Source of the DNA: Desulfurococcus sp.
GTDB taxonomy: Archaea; Thermoproteota; Thermoprotei_A; Sulfolobales; Desulfurococcaceae
Assembly: GCA_026626905.1 (NCBI GenBank)
Contig: JAPNUX010000006.1
Span: 1-64,000 of the forward strand
Length of the DNA: 64,000 bases
Reading direction: 5' to 3'
Shown: piece after piece, positions 36,397-42,371 of the stretch
How the letters are laid out: every line of letters starts with the position of its first letter
Numbering within the stretch: the stretch's first letter is position 1
The notes under the pieces: model-generated
Databases searched by the model: none
What the model was told of the DNA's origin: nothing
The model's input: only the letters and a program-made list of their open reading frames with translations
Made by a program: the position numbers and the translations under genes

Positions 36397-36774
36397 GTGT
36401 CATCAAAAGACCCAGTTAAAATCATGGCTGAACTCCTTAAGTCCGGTGCAGTAATGCTCCCGGAGACCTGTCCTGTTGAGGGATGCAACCTCCCTCTCTT
36501 CAAGTTGAAGAGTGGTGAGATCGTATGCCCTATCCACGGTAAAGTACACGTGGTTAGAACAGAAGAAGAGGTTAAAGAAGTATACTCTAAGACCTCGTTG
36601 TCAGCACTCCTCGATCGAGTGGAGGCAGCAGCTATTAAAGCTGTAAGCTCACTAGTGGAGGAAGTAGACGTAGATGCCGCTGACATCGTGAAATGGCTTG
36701 AGGTGCTAGAGAGAGTCCAAAGGCTGAAGTCTATGCTGAGAAAAGAGCAGTACATTCCCCCCTCAAGATCATAG
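36397..36774 (+). CDS. Sjogren/scleroderma autoantigen 1 family zinc protein (UPF0148)
   Basis: 125-aa archaeal protein. The N-terminal helix KIMAELLKSGAVMLPETCP leads into a zinc ribbon with CPVEGC and, after a beta-hairpin, CPIHGKVHVV. A long helical C-terminus follows. The human homologue is autoantigen p27; the archaeal role is unknown. GTG start with GAGGTGG five bases upstream. Divergent from UPF0147, with TATA-like elements for both in the 119-base gap. Confidence 0.88.
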   Translation: MSSKDPVKIMAELLKSGAVMLPETCPVEGCNLPLFKLKSGEIVCPIHGKVHVVRTEEEVKEVYSKTSLSALLDRVEAAAIKAVSSLVEEVDVDAADIVKWLEVLERVQRLKSMLRKEQYIPPSRS

Positions 36775-36881
36775 CTTTAATCTTACAGCTTCTATCCTCC
36801 AGTGGCTTGAAGCCGGTATTCACGTAGAGAGATTGTAGTTCAGAGTTTACTACCTCATAAGTCTACCAGGTAAGTGATCGT

Positions 36882-37196
36882 CTAGCATATCCTCCATTCT
36901 CTTCCTATTCTCTGATACTTCTTCATTACTATCTCCCTTGCTTTCATCAGTAATCCTTCTTTATCATACATTATTATTCCATCAGCTAGCGCATCTAGTA
37001 TTACACCCCAACCTCCTTCCACTGCGCCTAGAAGTTCTCGAGGTGTTAACCATATATCTTCTATTACCCCTATGTCAGCCTTATATTCTAGAGTAGTAAA
37101 CCACCTAATAGAGGGGTTTTTCAGGAAGGCTTTCTACTATAATGAGCACACCTATATCGCTTTCAGGAAATGGTTTCTCCTCACCTCTCGCAATTC
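36882..37196 (-). pseudogene. Broken MNT-type nucleotidyltransferase (antitoxin of an MNT/HEPN pair)
   Basis: Minus-strand reading gives RIARGEEKPFPESDIGVLIIVESLPEKP, the MNT metal-site region (GSxARGExxxxSDIDVLV in the family), then a stop at a one-base frameshift in an A5C4 run. The other frame then continues with WFTTLEYKADIGVIEDIWL and ALADGIIMYDKEGLLM to a stop at 36882. The second catalytic Asp is Gly (SDIG), and the normal N-terminus with the Gly-Ser motif is missing, replaced by the foreign segment at 37197. The three lesions together indicate a dead gene. Confidence 0.72.
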
Positions 37197-37297
37197 TCTT
37201 ATGGAGTAGCGAGATCCCGGTTTACACAGTGAAGTTTATAGGTGATATACGGCCACAAGGCTAAACCCACGTGACTCCAAGAGAGATAAAGTGGCTG
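37197..37297 (+). pseudogene. 101-bp displaced copy of the Clp1-type kinase gene
   Basis: The plus strand here translates as LWSSEIPVYTVKFIGDIRPQG, stop, THVTPREIKWLG. The intact kinase gene at 41109-42371 encodes LWSSEIPVYAMKFIGDIRPQG then YTHVIPREIKWLL. At DNA level the segment matches 41805-41905 in inverted orientation, with 7 differences in 101 bases by my hand alignment (one creates a stop) and no gaps. Similarity ends abruptly on both sides, exactly where the MNT and HEPN remnants begin. It is a dead fragment, not a gene. Confidence 0.9.
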
Positions 37298-37299
37298 GG

Positions 37300-37560
37300 T
37301 TAAGGACCCCCCCGGCTCCATATACTACAAGCAACACCTAGTTGAAGAAGTAATAGTGGAACCGGTAAGTCAACAATTCTACTGGAGATTAAAGCTTTTA
37401 ACACAACTGTCGGCCTATGTGTCTTACCAGGCTCAAAGCCTGAAGCAGCTATTAATGCCTTCACCGCCTTCTGCGATGCAAGCTCAGCGTAGAAGACCGA
37501 TGCAGCATGTTGATCACTGTTGAAGATGCTGTATGCAACACTTAAGTCTTCACGAGCCAT
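37300..37560 (-). pseudogene. C-terminally truncated HEPN domain protein
   Basis: 86 aa from an ATG at 37560. The HEPN signature is DQHAASVFYAELASQKAVKALIAASG followed by GKTHRPTVVLKAL. Full HEPN proteins have about 120-135 residues and end with the second half of the bundle, which carries the RxxxxH nuclease motif; that half is missing. The reading ends two codons after the junction with the 101-bp Clp1-type segment (SIWSRGGP). It lies directly upstream of the broken MNT gene, the usual partner. Probably inactive. Confidence 0.75.
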
Positions 37561-37666
37561 AGTAATCCAGTCACACGCTTTATCTATTCTTTACCATGGA
37601 GGCCACGCTACCAGAGGTTCTCACACTAAGTGTAAGTATAAATAATCTAATAAGAGTCAAAGTAGT

Positions 37667-38269
37667 TTACATCCCACGTGATATTAAGCTGTATACAGCC
37701 CTCCATACATCCTCGTATACGTGTTCTAGGGGTCTCGACGCATTAATACTCAGGAGTAACCCCATCCCCACCATCCTAAGATAGGCTTCTCGCACCCTTC
37801 TGAGGAACTCTACCTCCTCGTACTCAGGGAATCTAGATGACGCGCTGGCTTTTCTTGAGAGCCCCTCCTGGGGATCCACATCCAGGTATACTGCTAGATC
37901 TGGTTTAAGAGCATACTTGTTTACCTCTAGGATCCATTCGAATGGTGCTCCACTAGCTGACTGGTAGGCTACACTACTATAGAAGTATCTATCAGAGACT
38001 ACTATAGCGTGCTCCTCGAGGAGAGGCTTAATCTTCTCCTTAATGTGTAGTAGCCTGTCGAGCGCGAAGGTTAATGCATCTATGTATGGGTCCCTCAGGT
38101 TATTGTAGCGTGACTTAATTACTTTAACTATCTCGGAGTCTGTTGGCTCATAGGTGTAGGCTGCCTTGAACCCCATTCTATTAAGCTCGCTGACTAGTCT
38201 TAAAGCTATGCTTGTCTTACCAGCTCCATCAACCCCCTCTAGCACTATAAAGTATCCCTTATTCAGCAT
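37667..38269 (-). CDS. tmk: Thymidylate kinase
   Basis: Phosphorylates dTMP to dTDP. 200 aa. The P-loop is LEGVDGAGKTS, with YTYEPTDSEI, the DRY motif in VVSDRYFYSSVAYQ, and the Asp-rich YLDVDPQEGL. The ATG overlaps the stop of the phosphomevalonate dehydratase small-subunit gene by 11 bases, so it is the last gene of the mevalonate-type operon. The kinase has no obvious biochemical link to isoprenoids, but co-expression is built in. Confidence 0.94.
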   Translation of the reverse strand: MLNKGYFIVLEGVDGAGKTSIALRLVSELNRMGFKAAYTYEPTDSEIVKVIKSRYNNLRDPYIDALTFALDRLLHIKEKIKPLLEEHAIVVSDRYFYSSVAYQSASGAPFEWILEVNKYALKPDLAVYLDVDPQEGLSRKASASSRFPEYEEVEFLRRVREAYLRMVGMGLLLSINASRPLEHVYEDVWRAVYSLISRGM

Positions 38270-38654
38270 AGATTACACCTGAGCCCCGCTTATACCTCAA
38301 CAGCTTCTTTCCTTTCAAAAAAATCTTGAATTCCTCGTAGTCTACTGCGATTAGCAGGGGTATCTCAGCTATAATGCATCCTGCTATCAGTATGGGTTCA
38401 ACTTCCTTCACGATCATGCAGGCTGGTGACTTACCGTGACGCTTCAGCGCGTAGATTATGTAGGAGCCTACAGTACTCCCTCTACTCCCCTTGAATACTA
38501 GGACTTTACCACTAATAGATACCTCTTCCCCCTCCGTTTTCACAACTCCTCTAGCAGGTTCTACCTCTCCTAGGAAGCTTAGGTACTGGTCTACGAGTAC
38601 TGGCTCCCCCTCGCAGTCACCGTCGACTACTACTTTAACCCGCCAGCTCTCCAT
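38259..38654 (-). CDS. Phosphomevalonate dehydratase small subunit (AcnX swivel domain)
   Basis: Small subunit of the aconitase-X-type enzyme that dehydrates mevalonate 5-phosphate to trans-anhydromevalonate 5-phosphate in the archaeal mevalonate pathway. The DUF126 signature is GKVLVFKGSRGSTVGSYIIYAL, whose Ser is the proposed catalytic residue, then EPILIAGCIIAEIPLL. About 131 aa. Either ATG 38654 or the TTG at 38666 can start it; both lie within the end of the large-subunit gene, so the two are translated together. The large subunit is immediately upstream. Confidence 0.9.
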   Translation of the reverse strand: MESWRVKVVVDGDCEGEPVLVDQYLSFLGEVEPARGVVKTEGEEVSISGKVLVFKGSRGSTVGSYIIYALKRHGKSPACMIVKEVEPILIAGCIIAEIPLLIAVDYEEFKIFLKGKKLLRYKRGSGVIYAE

Positions 38655-39822
38655 AGACAGCTTCAACCACCTCTCTAAGCCCTGCTATCTTAACCCGCAG
38701 CCCATGTATTCTCCTAAGGTAGAATGCAGCCTTACCGCTATTAGTTACAACTACATCGTACCTCCTGCGTAGCACTGATACTACCGGGCAGGTGCCTGCA
38801 GCTATTTCAACACCTCTTGAGACCAGCTCGCTCACAATCCACTTAAATCTTGAAGGGTACTCTGCTGGAATTGTTATCAAGAGCTTCCCTCTCCTAGGGG
38901 CCCGGTAGCCTCTCCTCCTTAGAATCCTGGCTACCTCCATGATCTCCTCTAAGCTTAAATGAGGGCACCCAGTATACCCTAGTATCTCGCCGTTAAGCGA
39001 GTACTCTCCTCCAATATACTTCTCGAGATCGCCTGCTTCAATAGTTATATTCTCCCTGACATCCAAACTGTATGTTCCTTGAGGGGTCCAGCCTGGTATA
39101 ACAGCCAGTGCATGGCTGCCCGAGGCAGCCATCGCTGCTAACAGAACTTTAAGCTCTAGTAGACTAAGCCTCCTGGCGAAGGTGAGCAACGGTTTCTCAC
39201 GGATGTTCTCACCTATCCAGAGGCCGATCGCCCCACTAGGGTAGCCGCTGGCTTCACGTGAAACCTCAATACTTACCTCTATAACACGGTTCTCCAGCTT
39301 GTGTAGTCCAGCATCATAGGTGAAGCCTGTGAGAGCTGCAGCTAGAGTTACAGGTCCTCCTTCTCTATTCGTGAATCCACCGTAGATGGAGTTTGCTACT
39401 ATAACAGCACTACTCTCACCCCATGCTAAGTGCTCGCCGGGAGCCGGGGGCCTATACCAGTATGGGATGCAGGTGAAGACAGGCTTGAAGCCCATCCCGG
39501 TGAGAGCACTATCTATTACAGCCTGCTGGGTCATTAAGCTGTTATCTATAATTGATTGCAGGCTGCTGTAGTCCACGCCTCCAGGATTCACGGTTGTGTA
39601 TACTCTAGCCCTTCCTCCCTTCTCGTAGAGCTCTCTAATGAACTCGGCACCGTAGACACCTATATTACTAAATGATACACCGGAGACGTGCGCGTGGACT
39701 ATCTCAATTAGTCTCTCAGCACCCATGGATTCCCCGACTTTAACTAGTATCTCTACAGCTTTAGCAGTACTCCAACCGTACTCTCCTTTAAGCATGGCTT
39801 CCTGGAGGCGTGTTAAATACAA
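38635..39822 (-). CDS. Phosphomevalonate dehydratase large subunit (AcnX, [4Fe-4S])
   Basis: 395-aa aconitase-X catalytic subunit (DUF521). Three cysteines expected to hold the iron-sulfur cluster are visible: Cys118 in FTCIPYW, one in GYTGCPHLSLEE, and one in AAGTCPVV. Other blocks are TTVNPGGVDYSS, GEHLAWGESSAVIVANSIYG and TNREGGP. A TTG start with GAGGT at 8 bases lies two bases beyond the stop of the UbiD-type gene. Works with the overlapping small subunit; the next enzyme, the decarboxylase, is encoded just upstream. Confidence 0.93.
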   Translation of the reverse strand: MYLTRLQEAMLKGEYGWSTAKAVEILVKVGESMGAERLIEIVHAHVSGVSFSNIGVYGAEFIRELYEKGGRARVYTTVNPGGVDYSSLQSIIDNSLMTQQAVIDSALTGMGFKPVFTCIPYWYRPPAPGEHLAWGESSAVIVANSIYGGFTNREGGPVTLAAALTGFTYDAGLHKLENRVIEVSIEVSREASGYPSGAIGLWIGENIREKPLLTFARRLSLLELKVLLAAMAASGSHALAVIPGWTPQGTYSLDVRENITIEAGDLEKYIGGEYSLNGEILGYTGCPHLSLEEIMEVARILRRRGYRAPRRGKLLITIPAEYPSRFKWIVSELVSRGVEIAAGTCPVVSVLRRRYDVVVTNSGKAAFYLRRIHGLRVKIAGLREVVEAVYGELAG

Positions 39823-39823
39823 T

Positions 39824-41119
39824 CTACGGGACCTCGACTCTCCTATACTTACTCCAAGGCTCGTTAAACGGCTTGACAGCCACGAAGACGACTTTATCTC
39901 CTACTCCATCCTTGCTCCTAGGATCCAGCGTGCTCCCCTTGAGGTCGCGGAGTACTATTATATCCTCTGAACCCTTCATTCTTGTTGCTAAAGCCCATTC
40001 AACCATTAATGGATTATCTACATCTATGTCGTCATCAACCACGATGACGTGCTTGACGCTTGGGTGGGCTGTTATAGCTGCAAGACCGGCTAGCCTGGCT
40101 TCCCCCGGCGACTGTTGTCTCAGCGAGATAACTACGTGGAGCCAGCTTGACCCGCCCTCTGTTAACCTCACAGACTTTAAGCCTGGTGCAACCTTCTTCA
40201 CCTGGCTGTATATGACTGGCTCCCTAGGAAAGCCCATTAGAAACTGGTGTTCCCATGAACCTGGGACTATTGCATGAAAGACTGGATCCTCTACTCTAGA
40301 CACGTATACAGCGAGAGGCTTGAAGACAGGCTCCATTCGCTCCTCGTCGACTAGCATTAGAATGTCTGTGAAGGGCCCTTCTCTATCTCTTTCACGTGTT
40401 ATTAAGCCTTCAACCACTATGCTGGAGTCAACTGGAACTGGTATCTTGAATAAGGGTGTCTCAGCGACTAGGTCGCCGCCACCAAGGGCTGCTCCCACGC
40501 TAATCTCGAATACCCCTAGAGGCGGTGTCATAGCTGATGCTATCTCCTGGAACGGGTTAACACCTAGGACTACTGCCACCGGGGTATCCCGGCCTTCCTC
40601 ACTGTTCTTTGAGACAATATAGTGGAGGTGCCTGGGTACTATTCTAATTGTTGCCTTCCCTCTCTCGTGATACATTATCCTGTGGAAGCTACTATTGCAG
40701 AACTCCCTAGTGCATGCTATTACAATAGAGCTTGTGAGGTATGACCCCCCGTCTTCCCTGTAGTACCTTATGAATGGGAGGGTTTCAAGTAGTCCTTCAG
40801 CACGCTTAAAATACTTGTCGAAGTCATCTTTTCTCAGAGTGGCAGGCTTATTTAAGGCGGCATCTAGAATTCCATATAGTTCCTCATCGCTTTTAGAATT
40901 GAAGAGCCCATGTAAATCCTGTCTTCTAGTGACTAGATTCGAGTAGCCTACAATCCATTCTTTACCTCTTACTCTGAAGACTACGACCTTATCTCTATTA
41001 CTCCATGCTGCTCTAGTGACCTCGTAGCCTTCCTCCACTAAGCCTATGTCAACTATGTTTTTACCCAGCCTGCCGGCTAGTTCTTCGAGAGTCTTCAGAT
41101 TCAAGCTCTCAGGCCCCAA
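39824..41119 (-). CDS. UbiD-family decarboxylase, probable trans-anhydromevalonate 5-phosphate decarboxylase
   Basis: 431-aa prenylated-FMN-dependent decarboxylase. UbiD signatures are HYIVSKN, VVLGVNPFQEIASAM, RDREGPFTDIL (the Glu-Arg-Glu region) and VVDDDIDVDNP. UbiD proteins act on many acids; the direct linkage to both phosphomevalonate dehydratase genes identifies the substrate as anhydromevalonate phosphate, giving isopentenyl phosphate. Prenyl-FMN would need a UbiX enzyme, not in this window. The TTG start overlaps the Clp1-type kinase stop by 11 bases with GAGGAG upstream. Confidence 0.88.
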   Translation of the reverse strand: MGPESLNLKTLEELAGRLGKNIVDIGLVEEGYEVTRAAWSNRDKVVVFRVRGKEWIVGYSNLVTRRQDLHGLFNSKSDEELYGILDAALNKPATLRKDDFDKYFKRAEGLLETLPFIRYYREDGGSYLTSSIVIACTREFCNSSFHRIMYHERGKATIRIVPRHLHYIVSKNSEEGRDTPVAVVLGVNPFQEIASAMTPPLGVFEISVGAALGGGDLVAETPLFKIPVPVDSSIVVEGLITRERDREGPFTDILMLVDEERMEPVFKPLAVYVSRVEDPVFHAIVPGSWEHQFLMGFPREPVIYSQVKKVAPGLKSVRLTEGGSSWLHVVISLRQQSPGEARLAGLAAITAHPSVKHVIVVDDDIDVDNPLMVEWALATRMKGSEDIIVLRDLKGSTLDPRSKDGVGDKVVFVAVKPFNEPWSKYRRVEVP

Positions 41120-42371
41120 TGTACTCCTCGCTGTAGTCTTCTCTAAGCCTTATAGGTGACAGCTTTAAGATATCTATCTTTCCCTGGAATCCTGTTCTAA
41201 CTAGAACCTGCTTACTCTCGAAGTCCAGCTTCTCTAGGAGGCAAGGGTAGTCTCCTCCTCTTAGAGAGCCTACACTACAGTAGACTCCTTTCTCAAAGCC
41301 TAAATTATGGACTCTCACCTCGCTTACCCCTAGCTTCTTAGCTAGTTCCTCCCTGCTGACAGCTTTAATAGATCCATAGATGTTCAGTTCGCCGTGGATC
41401 CGTGAAGCATAGACTACTTTGCCCTCTACTAGGCCTTCAAGCATAGATGCATCAACAGGGTACCCGTGGAATAGTGGATGGCCATTAATGAGTATGGAGT
41501 CCATGGGGATCCTCCTTAAAGGCGCGTTCGCCAGGAAATCCCTATACTTCATGCTTCTCAGCAGTCTTCTCTCCTCTCTGCTGCGAATTTTTCTTGCTGA
41601 GGGTTCTGGTAGCTCATATACCTCAACACCAATCAACTTGTACCGCTTAAAGTACTGGCTTAAACCCTCACCGAAAACTACTATGACATCTGGTTCCACT
41701 ACTTCAACCAGGTGTTGCTTGTAGTATACGGCGCCGGGGTCCTTAACCCAGCCATCAGTATCCACTACTGTAATATTACATCCAGCAGACTCTGCGAGAT
41801 TAAGCAGCCACTTTATCTCCCTGGGAATCACGTGGGTATAGCCTTGCGGCCGTATATCACCTATAAACTTCATTGCGTAAACCGGGATCTCGCTACTCCA
41901 TAAGACTGGCTTCTCAGGTACCCCAAGAGAGATAAACCCGGGAGGACCTATATTAGACTGGCCGAGGTCACCGTCTACCAAGCCTGGCTTTAAGCCTGTT
42001 GACATAGCTATATTCACGAGTAGAGTTGAAAAAGATGATTTCCCTGAATCCGTGCCCCCAATAACCACTATTCTCTTAAATCCTCTTGAAACCACGTCTA
42101 GTGCTAGATTAACCCTCATCCTATAGGGGTCCTGTTCATCTAGTGGCTGTATAGTGGATTCATTACTCATGTTAACATCGAGCTCTGAGTCTTCTAAGGC
42201 TTCAATAATATAGTTTCTCGATTTGTGGACAACTAGGCTCTCTCCTTCCCTAAAAGTCCTCCAGAGGATACTCACTGATCCCTTAGTGATAGTTATATGC
42301 ATAGGGCCGTATACCTTAACAAACTCGCCTCTAGCGAGGCTTAAACGCGGAATCTTACCCCACCTCAACAC
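41109..42371 (-). CDS. Clp1/Grc3-type polynucleotide 5'-hydroxyl kinase
   Basis: RNA 5'-OH kinase of the Clp1 family, 420 aa. The P-loop is VVIGGTDSGKSSFS (103-116), followed by LVDGDLGQSNIGPPG, the family's Walker-B-like block. The N-terminal beta domain and C-terminal domain (about 300-420) are both present, so it is full length and intact. It probably phosphorylates RNA ends during tRNA or rRNA processing. It starts with GTG, overlapping the upstream gene by 17 bases. Residues 157-189 correspond to the displaced copy at 37197-37297. Confidence 0.92.
   Translation of the reverse strand: MLRWGKIPRLSLARGEFVKVYGPMHITITKGSVSILWRTFREGESLVVHKSRNYIIEALEDSELDVNMSNESTIQPLDEQDPYRMRVNLALDVVSRGFKRIVVIGGTDSGKSSFSTLLVNIAMSTGLKPGLVDGDLGQSNIGPPGFISLGVPEKPVLWSSEIPVYAMKFIGDIRPQGYTHVIPREIKWLLNLAESAGCNITVVDTDGWVKDPGAVYYKQHLVEVVEPDVIVVFGEGLSQYFKRYKLIGVEVYELPEPSARKIRSREERRLLRSMKYRDFLANAPLRRIPMDSILINGHPLFHGYPVDASMLEGLVEGKVVYASRIHGELNIYGSIKAVSREELAKKLGVSEVRVHNLGFEKGVYCSVGSLRGGDYPCLLEKLDFESKQVLVRTGFQGKIDILKLSPIRLREDYSEEYIGA

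Follow-up and report, generated by a model that had tools for sequence, protein, structure and literature searches.

How a piece of a Clp1-type RNA kinase gene came to lie, inverted, inside the remains of a HEPN/MNT gene pair is the question raised by a locus of Desulfurococcus sp. The window analysed here is 64,000 nucleotides long and corresponds to positions C6:1-64000 of a 1.272-Mb genome assembled in 8 contigs and scored 99.9% complete. The sequence-only reading had described the locus as a HEPN/MNT toxin-antitoxin relic split by a fragment of the intact kinase gene nearby, and this description was supported by the features collected in Table 1.

Table 1 Features of the HEPN/MNT locus, its flanks and the source of the captured segment (positions of the window)
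Feature	Position	Strand	Basis
Left flank: p27-like (PF06677) gene, convergent with tmk	36397..36774	+	Pfam, genus-mates
MNT remnant, C-terminal ~100 residues; frameshift near 37105	36882..37194	-	Alignment with six relatives
Captured part of Clp1-type kinase gene, inverted relative to source; one in-frame stop	37197..37363	+	Alignment
TGGCTG hexamer at internal deletion junction; twice in source, 56 bp apart	37292..37297	+	Alignment
HEPN remnant, first ~half of protein; +1 frameshift near 37582	37363..37597	-	PF05168, alignment with relatives
Right flank: thymidylate kinase gene (tmk), last of conserved Clp1-UbiD-AcnX-tmk row	37667..38269	-	Pfam, genus-mate order
Intact Clp1-type (CLP1_P) kinase gene	41109..42371	-	Pfam; 420 aa, E 7.7e-39
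Source segment inside Clp1-type kinase gene	41692..41905	-	Joint alignment

The 101-bp inverted match reported earlier was recovered in a search of the own genome (37197-37297 on the forward strand against 41805-41905 on the reverse strand, E ~1e-37, a value that rules out chance similarity). The two stretches are identical at 94 of 101 positions, and one of the seven substitutions turns a TAT codon into the stop TAA, as had been stated. A second match, of 88% identity, adjoins the first (37292-37351(+) against 41698-41754(-)), and the order and strand of both pieces are those of the source. Thus the 101-bp match is real but is part of a larger piece, in which 167 bp of copy correspond to 214 bp of source with 10 substitutions in 158 aligned columns and three indels. 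The latter are a 56-bp deletion, with TGGCTG repeats of the source at its borders, and two insertions, one of 3 bp (a run of C) and one of 6 bp. The insert therefore has a locatable source that is still in place, as is expected of a templated insertion.

The source gene is intact, in agreement with the earlier claim, and a Clp1-type gene was present in 40 of the 41 genomes searched (the own genome and 40 relatives), while a short and near-identical ectopic piece of it occurred only in the own genome. A search of the genome contigs with the kinase returned one distant locus. NCBIfam gave no match for the HEPN, MNT or kinase proteins, and Rfam found nothing near the locus but one tRNA. At 37667-42371 the genes for the Clp1-type kinase, a UbiD-like protein, the large and small AcnX subunits and Tmk form a row on one strand, with ends that overlap or abut, and the Clp1-UbiD-AcnX-tmk order is kept in both genus-mates.

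Across the stretch, the codons of the copy follow those of the own kinase gene and not those of the genus-mates, which rules out a genus-mate as donor. Six of the ten substitutions alter an amino acid or create a stop and four are silent. The expected fraction of altering changes is 0.74-0.79 with no coding constraint (P 0.15-0.25) and 0.22 under strong constraint (omega 0.1; P 0.01), the poorer fit of the two. These small numbers, in which some changes may belong to the source, fit a copy that drifts with no sign of coding constraint, and the drift without selection proposed from the sequence alone is upheld to this extent.

On one side of the copy, the 86-aa open reading frame at 37300-37560(-) matches PF05168 (E 1.2e-9, residues 2-58) and continues into antisense kinase sequence. 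Alignment with relatives places the original HEPN start at about 37597, upstream of the +1 frameshift, a lesion absent from the earlier reading. On the other side, the part of the MNT remnant tested (36885-37115) had no Pfam match, and the identity of the remnant rests on alignment with relatives that do match PF01909. Its N-terminus is missing through the GS motif, and it reads SDIG where the relatives have SDID; of the GS...DXD signature of an adjacent PF01909 MNT, GS is gone and DXD has become DIG. The N-terminal truncation, the frameshift and the loss of a catalytic Asp claimed for MNT were thus all found, and both genes are truncated as described, but the damage is wider, as HEPN is frameshifted too. 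Judged by its sequence, the locus is a relic of a Class II HEPN-MNT cassette and no longer a functional one. The lesions show that both cassette genes are dead and that the copy and the remnants have drifted since.

The further claim that the lost end of HEPN is the one carrying the nuclease motif was not supported. The RX4HXY motif, a mark of Class I HepT/MntA systems, was found in none of the 14 HEPN proteins checked (seven from relatives and seven from the own genome). A looser R-x4-6-H pattern occurred in six of the seven relatives, there only in the first half of the protein, and in three of the seven own paralogues at varying places. PMC7641770 agrees, describing Class II (PF05168) HEPNs as lacking RX4HXY; when it appeared, neutralisation of the toxin by the antitoxin still awaited validation in Class II. 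"Toxin-antitoxin" is therefore used here as a family label.

The structure of the original cassette was deduced from related loci. HEPN was searched for in 398 genomes of the phylum, and 22 of these, the own genome included, had a match at E 1e-4 or better. The eight best matches other than the own one are 48-72% identical over 55-66 of 66 residues and all lie outside this order. At six of the eight loci (L093, L094, L095, L097, L098 and L099) MNT comes after HEPN, the two genes overlapping by 7 bp. Pfam confirmed PF05168 in the four relatives' HEPN proteins tested, and PF01909 in the three MNT proteins tested (L093, L095 and L098). L092, in which MNT is decayed, and L096, where no such pair was seen, were left out of the measurement of the deletion. 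From the point corresponding to the end of the HEPN remnant to that corresponding to the start of the MNT remnant the distance is 314-323 bp in all six relatives measured versus 171 bp here, which means that the cassette is short of about 315 bp and that the kinase piece now occupies the gap. The comparison thus shows the kinase piece as a replacement of the HEPN end and MNT start; the insertion proposed earlier is present, but it replaced DNA and was not merely added.

The closest HEPN relative (72%), at L092:1288-1785 in G515, a genome from a different order of the class, is open, whereas the MNT gene beside it decays soon after its start, so a HEPN of this type can persist without MNT. Another truncated HEPN gene was seen in the own genome at C1:68057-68212.

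The comparison with sister genomes advised by the sequence-only reading showed that the site is empty in both genus-mates, intact relatives being found in other orders of the phylum. The p27-like gene and tmk abut in these two genomes, overlapping by 4 bp in G002 and lying about 10 bp apart in G001, whereas they are 892 bp apart here. The same arrangement encoding a conserved protein was not seen in the sister genomes. At the DNA level, none of the 40 relatives searched along with the own genome had a homologous locus, and searches of the order with HEPN and MNT gave no close relative (40 of 197 genomes, the own included, at E 0.01 or better, with 52% as the best non-own identity, and 3 of 214, again with the own, at E 0.001). 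From the empty sites and the lack of a close relative in the order it follows that the cassette was either horizontally acquired or lost in all other genomes searched, and horizontal transfer into this lineage is the simpler of the two.

A repeat search of 36775-37670 disclosed neither inverted repeats nor direct repeats around the insert, as had been asserted, and with the empty site in the genus-mates this rules out insertion by a transposon or an integrase. The earlier preference for a repair event over a transposon is thus supported. The HEPN-MNT cassette would have entered between the two convergent genes after the split from the genus-mates, a direction suggested by the empty sites. The cassette may then have suffered a break or a stalled fork, the repair of which entailed the loss of about 315 bp seen in the comparison with relatives. 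In this repair, local template switching would have let a DNA end copy about 214 bp of the kinase gene, which lies on the opposite strand at a distance of 4.3 kb, before it rejoined. As to the 56 bp missing between the TGGCTG repeats, the repair itself may have included a further switch, or slippage may have deleted them later. Local template switching is preferred since the source is close and inverted, the copy replaces DNA, no hallmark of a mobile element is seen and Ku was not detected. The whole scenario of cassette entry, break repair, template switch from the kinase gene and subsequent decay is considered probable. It describes a well-resolved genomic scar and no new system.

As to the agent of the switch, the gene for the primase small subunit was found in the own genome. 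PriSL of Saccharolobus islandicus is reported to anneal by as few as 2-4 GC pairs, to extend across discontinuous templates and to mediate end joining, the archaeal repair products being mostly indels of 1-2 bp (PMC12019639). PriSL as the agent is plausible but unproven. At the outer junctions here microhomology may amount to 1-2 nt at most, a weak sign that would agree with template switching and with the joining of a free fragment alike.

It is possible, though clearly less probable than the scenario above, that the capture came later and struck a cassette that was dead by then, having had no part in its inactivation. Both remnants are frameshifted away from the insert, and the G515 locus from another order also has a decayed MNT beside its open HEPN. 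Against this, the lesions outside the insert are few and are consistent with decay after one inactivating event.

Less likely still is the ligation of a free kinase-gene fragment, whether a breakdown product or DNA taken up from a nearby conspecific cell, into a break of the cassette. Such an origin would agree with the want of clear microhomology at the outer junctions and with the four silent differences out of ten, which allow part of the 6% to be strain divergence. However, the source starts only 4.3 kb from the copy, and a randomly placed source would fall within 4.7 kb in 0.7% of cases. Ku was, moreover, not detected in the own genome, by a search that, among 14 control genomes, passed its cut-off in only one. 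Taken together, local template switching is favoured over capture of a random fragment.

It is very improbable that the arrangement has been kept because the dead cassette is a natural source of antisense RNA that lowers kinase expression. The copy sits immediately past tmk, with which the kinase-led row closes, and on the tmk strand it reads as the antisense of the kinase gene, so that RNA read from the tmk side would be antisense to the kinase message. If this were true, transcripts spanning the row from the kinase gene to tmk would contain the segment together with its inverted counterpart; pairing could then take place in trans, or within one molecule folded on itself along about 150 bp. 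The predicted duplex energy is -276 kcal/mol. However, such an energy is expected of any long inverted copy, the arrangement is not conserved and is absent in the genus-mates, and the copy drifts with no sign of coding constraint.

An artefact of whole-genome amplification or assembly, suggested by the inverted orientation, the intramolecular source and the intervening deletion that PMC1855051 gives as typical of nearby MDA chimeras, has a negligible likelihood. An amplification chimera was ruled out, since it would be identical or nearly so to its source, unlike a copy diverged by 6% with ten substitutions including a stop and three indels, and since HEPN and MNT bear separate lesions of their own and the genes on either side are ordered as in the genus-mates.

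The search for other short ectopic gene copies, also advised earlier, was run as a self-comparison of 460,980 bases, 36% of the own genome, at E 1e-6 or better. It gave 15 matches, two of which belong to the kinase-copy event. Nine others were taken to be tRNA genes or a tRNA fragment (three), ABC-transporter-like genes (three), the tails of ribosomal P0/L12-like genes (one), two neighbouring initiation-factor-like genes (one) and a dispersed repeat (one). The remaining four (65-665 bp at 76-85%) were judged paralogue-like without inspection. No further capture of this kind was recognised among the inspected matches in this 36% of the genome.

Among these matches, a 188-bp one of 95% identity links C1:28821-29006 (L077:8821-9006) with C6:103095-103281 (L073:19095-19281), beside a tRNA-Lys gene. 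It was considered as a parallel capture and dropped, as parts of it recur on C2 and C4; for this reason it is regarded as a dispersed repeat, leader-like or other. A 24-bp sequence within it (CTTTCAG...GCTTC) resembles a crenarchaeal CRISPR repeat, and the C1 copy of the 188-bp repeat supplies the last codons of a retropepsin-like reading frame. Separately, an identical stretch of 43 bases in two adjacent genes (C6:65618-65660 and C6:66613-66655) suggests recent gene conversion. At C1:64339-64384, between open reading frames, 46 bp resemble a tRNA-Ser gene of C8 (89% identity) and represent either part of a tRNA gene or a whole one that escaped detection.

As the locus shows, a single step that deletes the end of the toxin-like gene along with the beginning of its partner is enough to eliminate a toxin-antitoxin-like cassette. 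It also offers a well-bounded natural example for seeking templated repair in archaea in which Ku is not detectable.

With regard to known systems, the product resembles what archaeal primase microhomology end joining could yield, namely very short GC annealing followed by extension on a new template, but the accessible text of PMC12019639 deals mainly with indels of 1-2 bp and has no 200-nt templated insert of the kind seen here. In Class II HEPN/MNT modules (PF05168/PF01909), which PMC7641770 describes as widespread in hyperthermophiles, HEPN is followed directly by MNT with an overlap of a few bp, as in the six relatives. The own genome has seven further HEPN-MNT pairs in 1.27 Mb, and the intact ones keep this order. 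By contrast, both genes of the present locus are truncated and frameshifted, and MNT has lost GS and one Asp. Eukaryotes are well known for long templated insertions, and it is mostly from them that template-switch repair (MMBIR, polymerase-theta-like joining) is known; no description of a templated insertion in a hyperthermophilic archaeon was found in open-licence full texts. The present case differs from the MMBIR or polymerase-theta-like ones in its hyperthermophilic archaeal host and in that homology at the outer junctions is not demonstrable. It shares with them a short inverted copy of nearby DNA, put in place of a deleted stretch, and microhomology at the inner junction.
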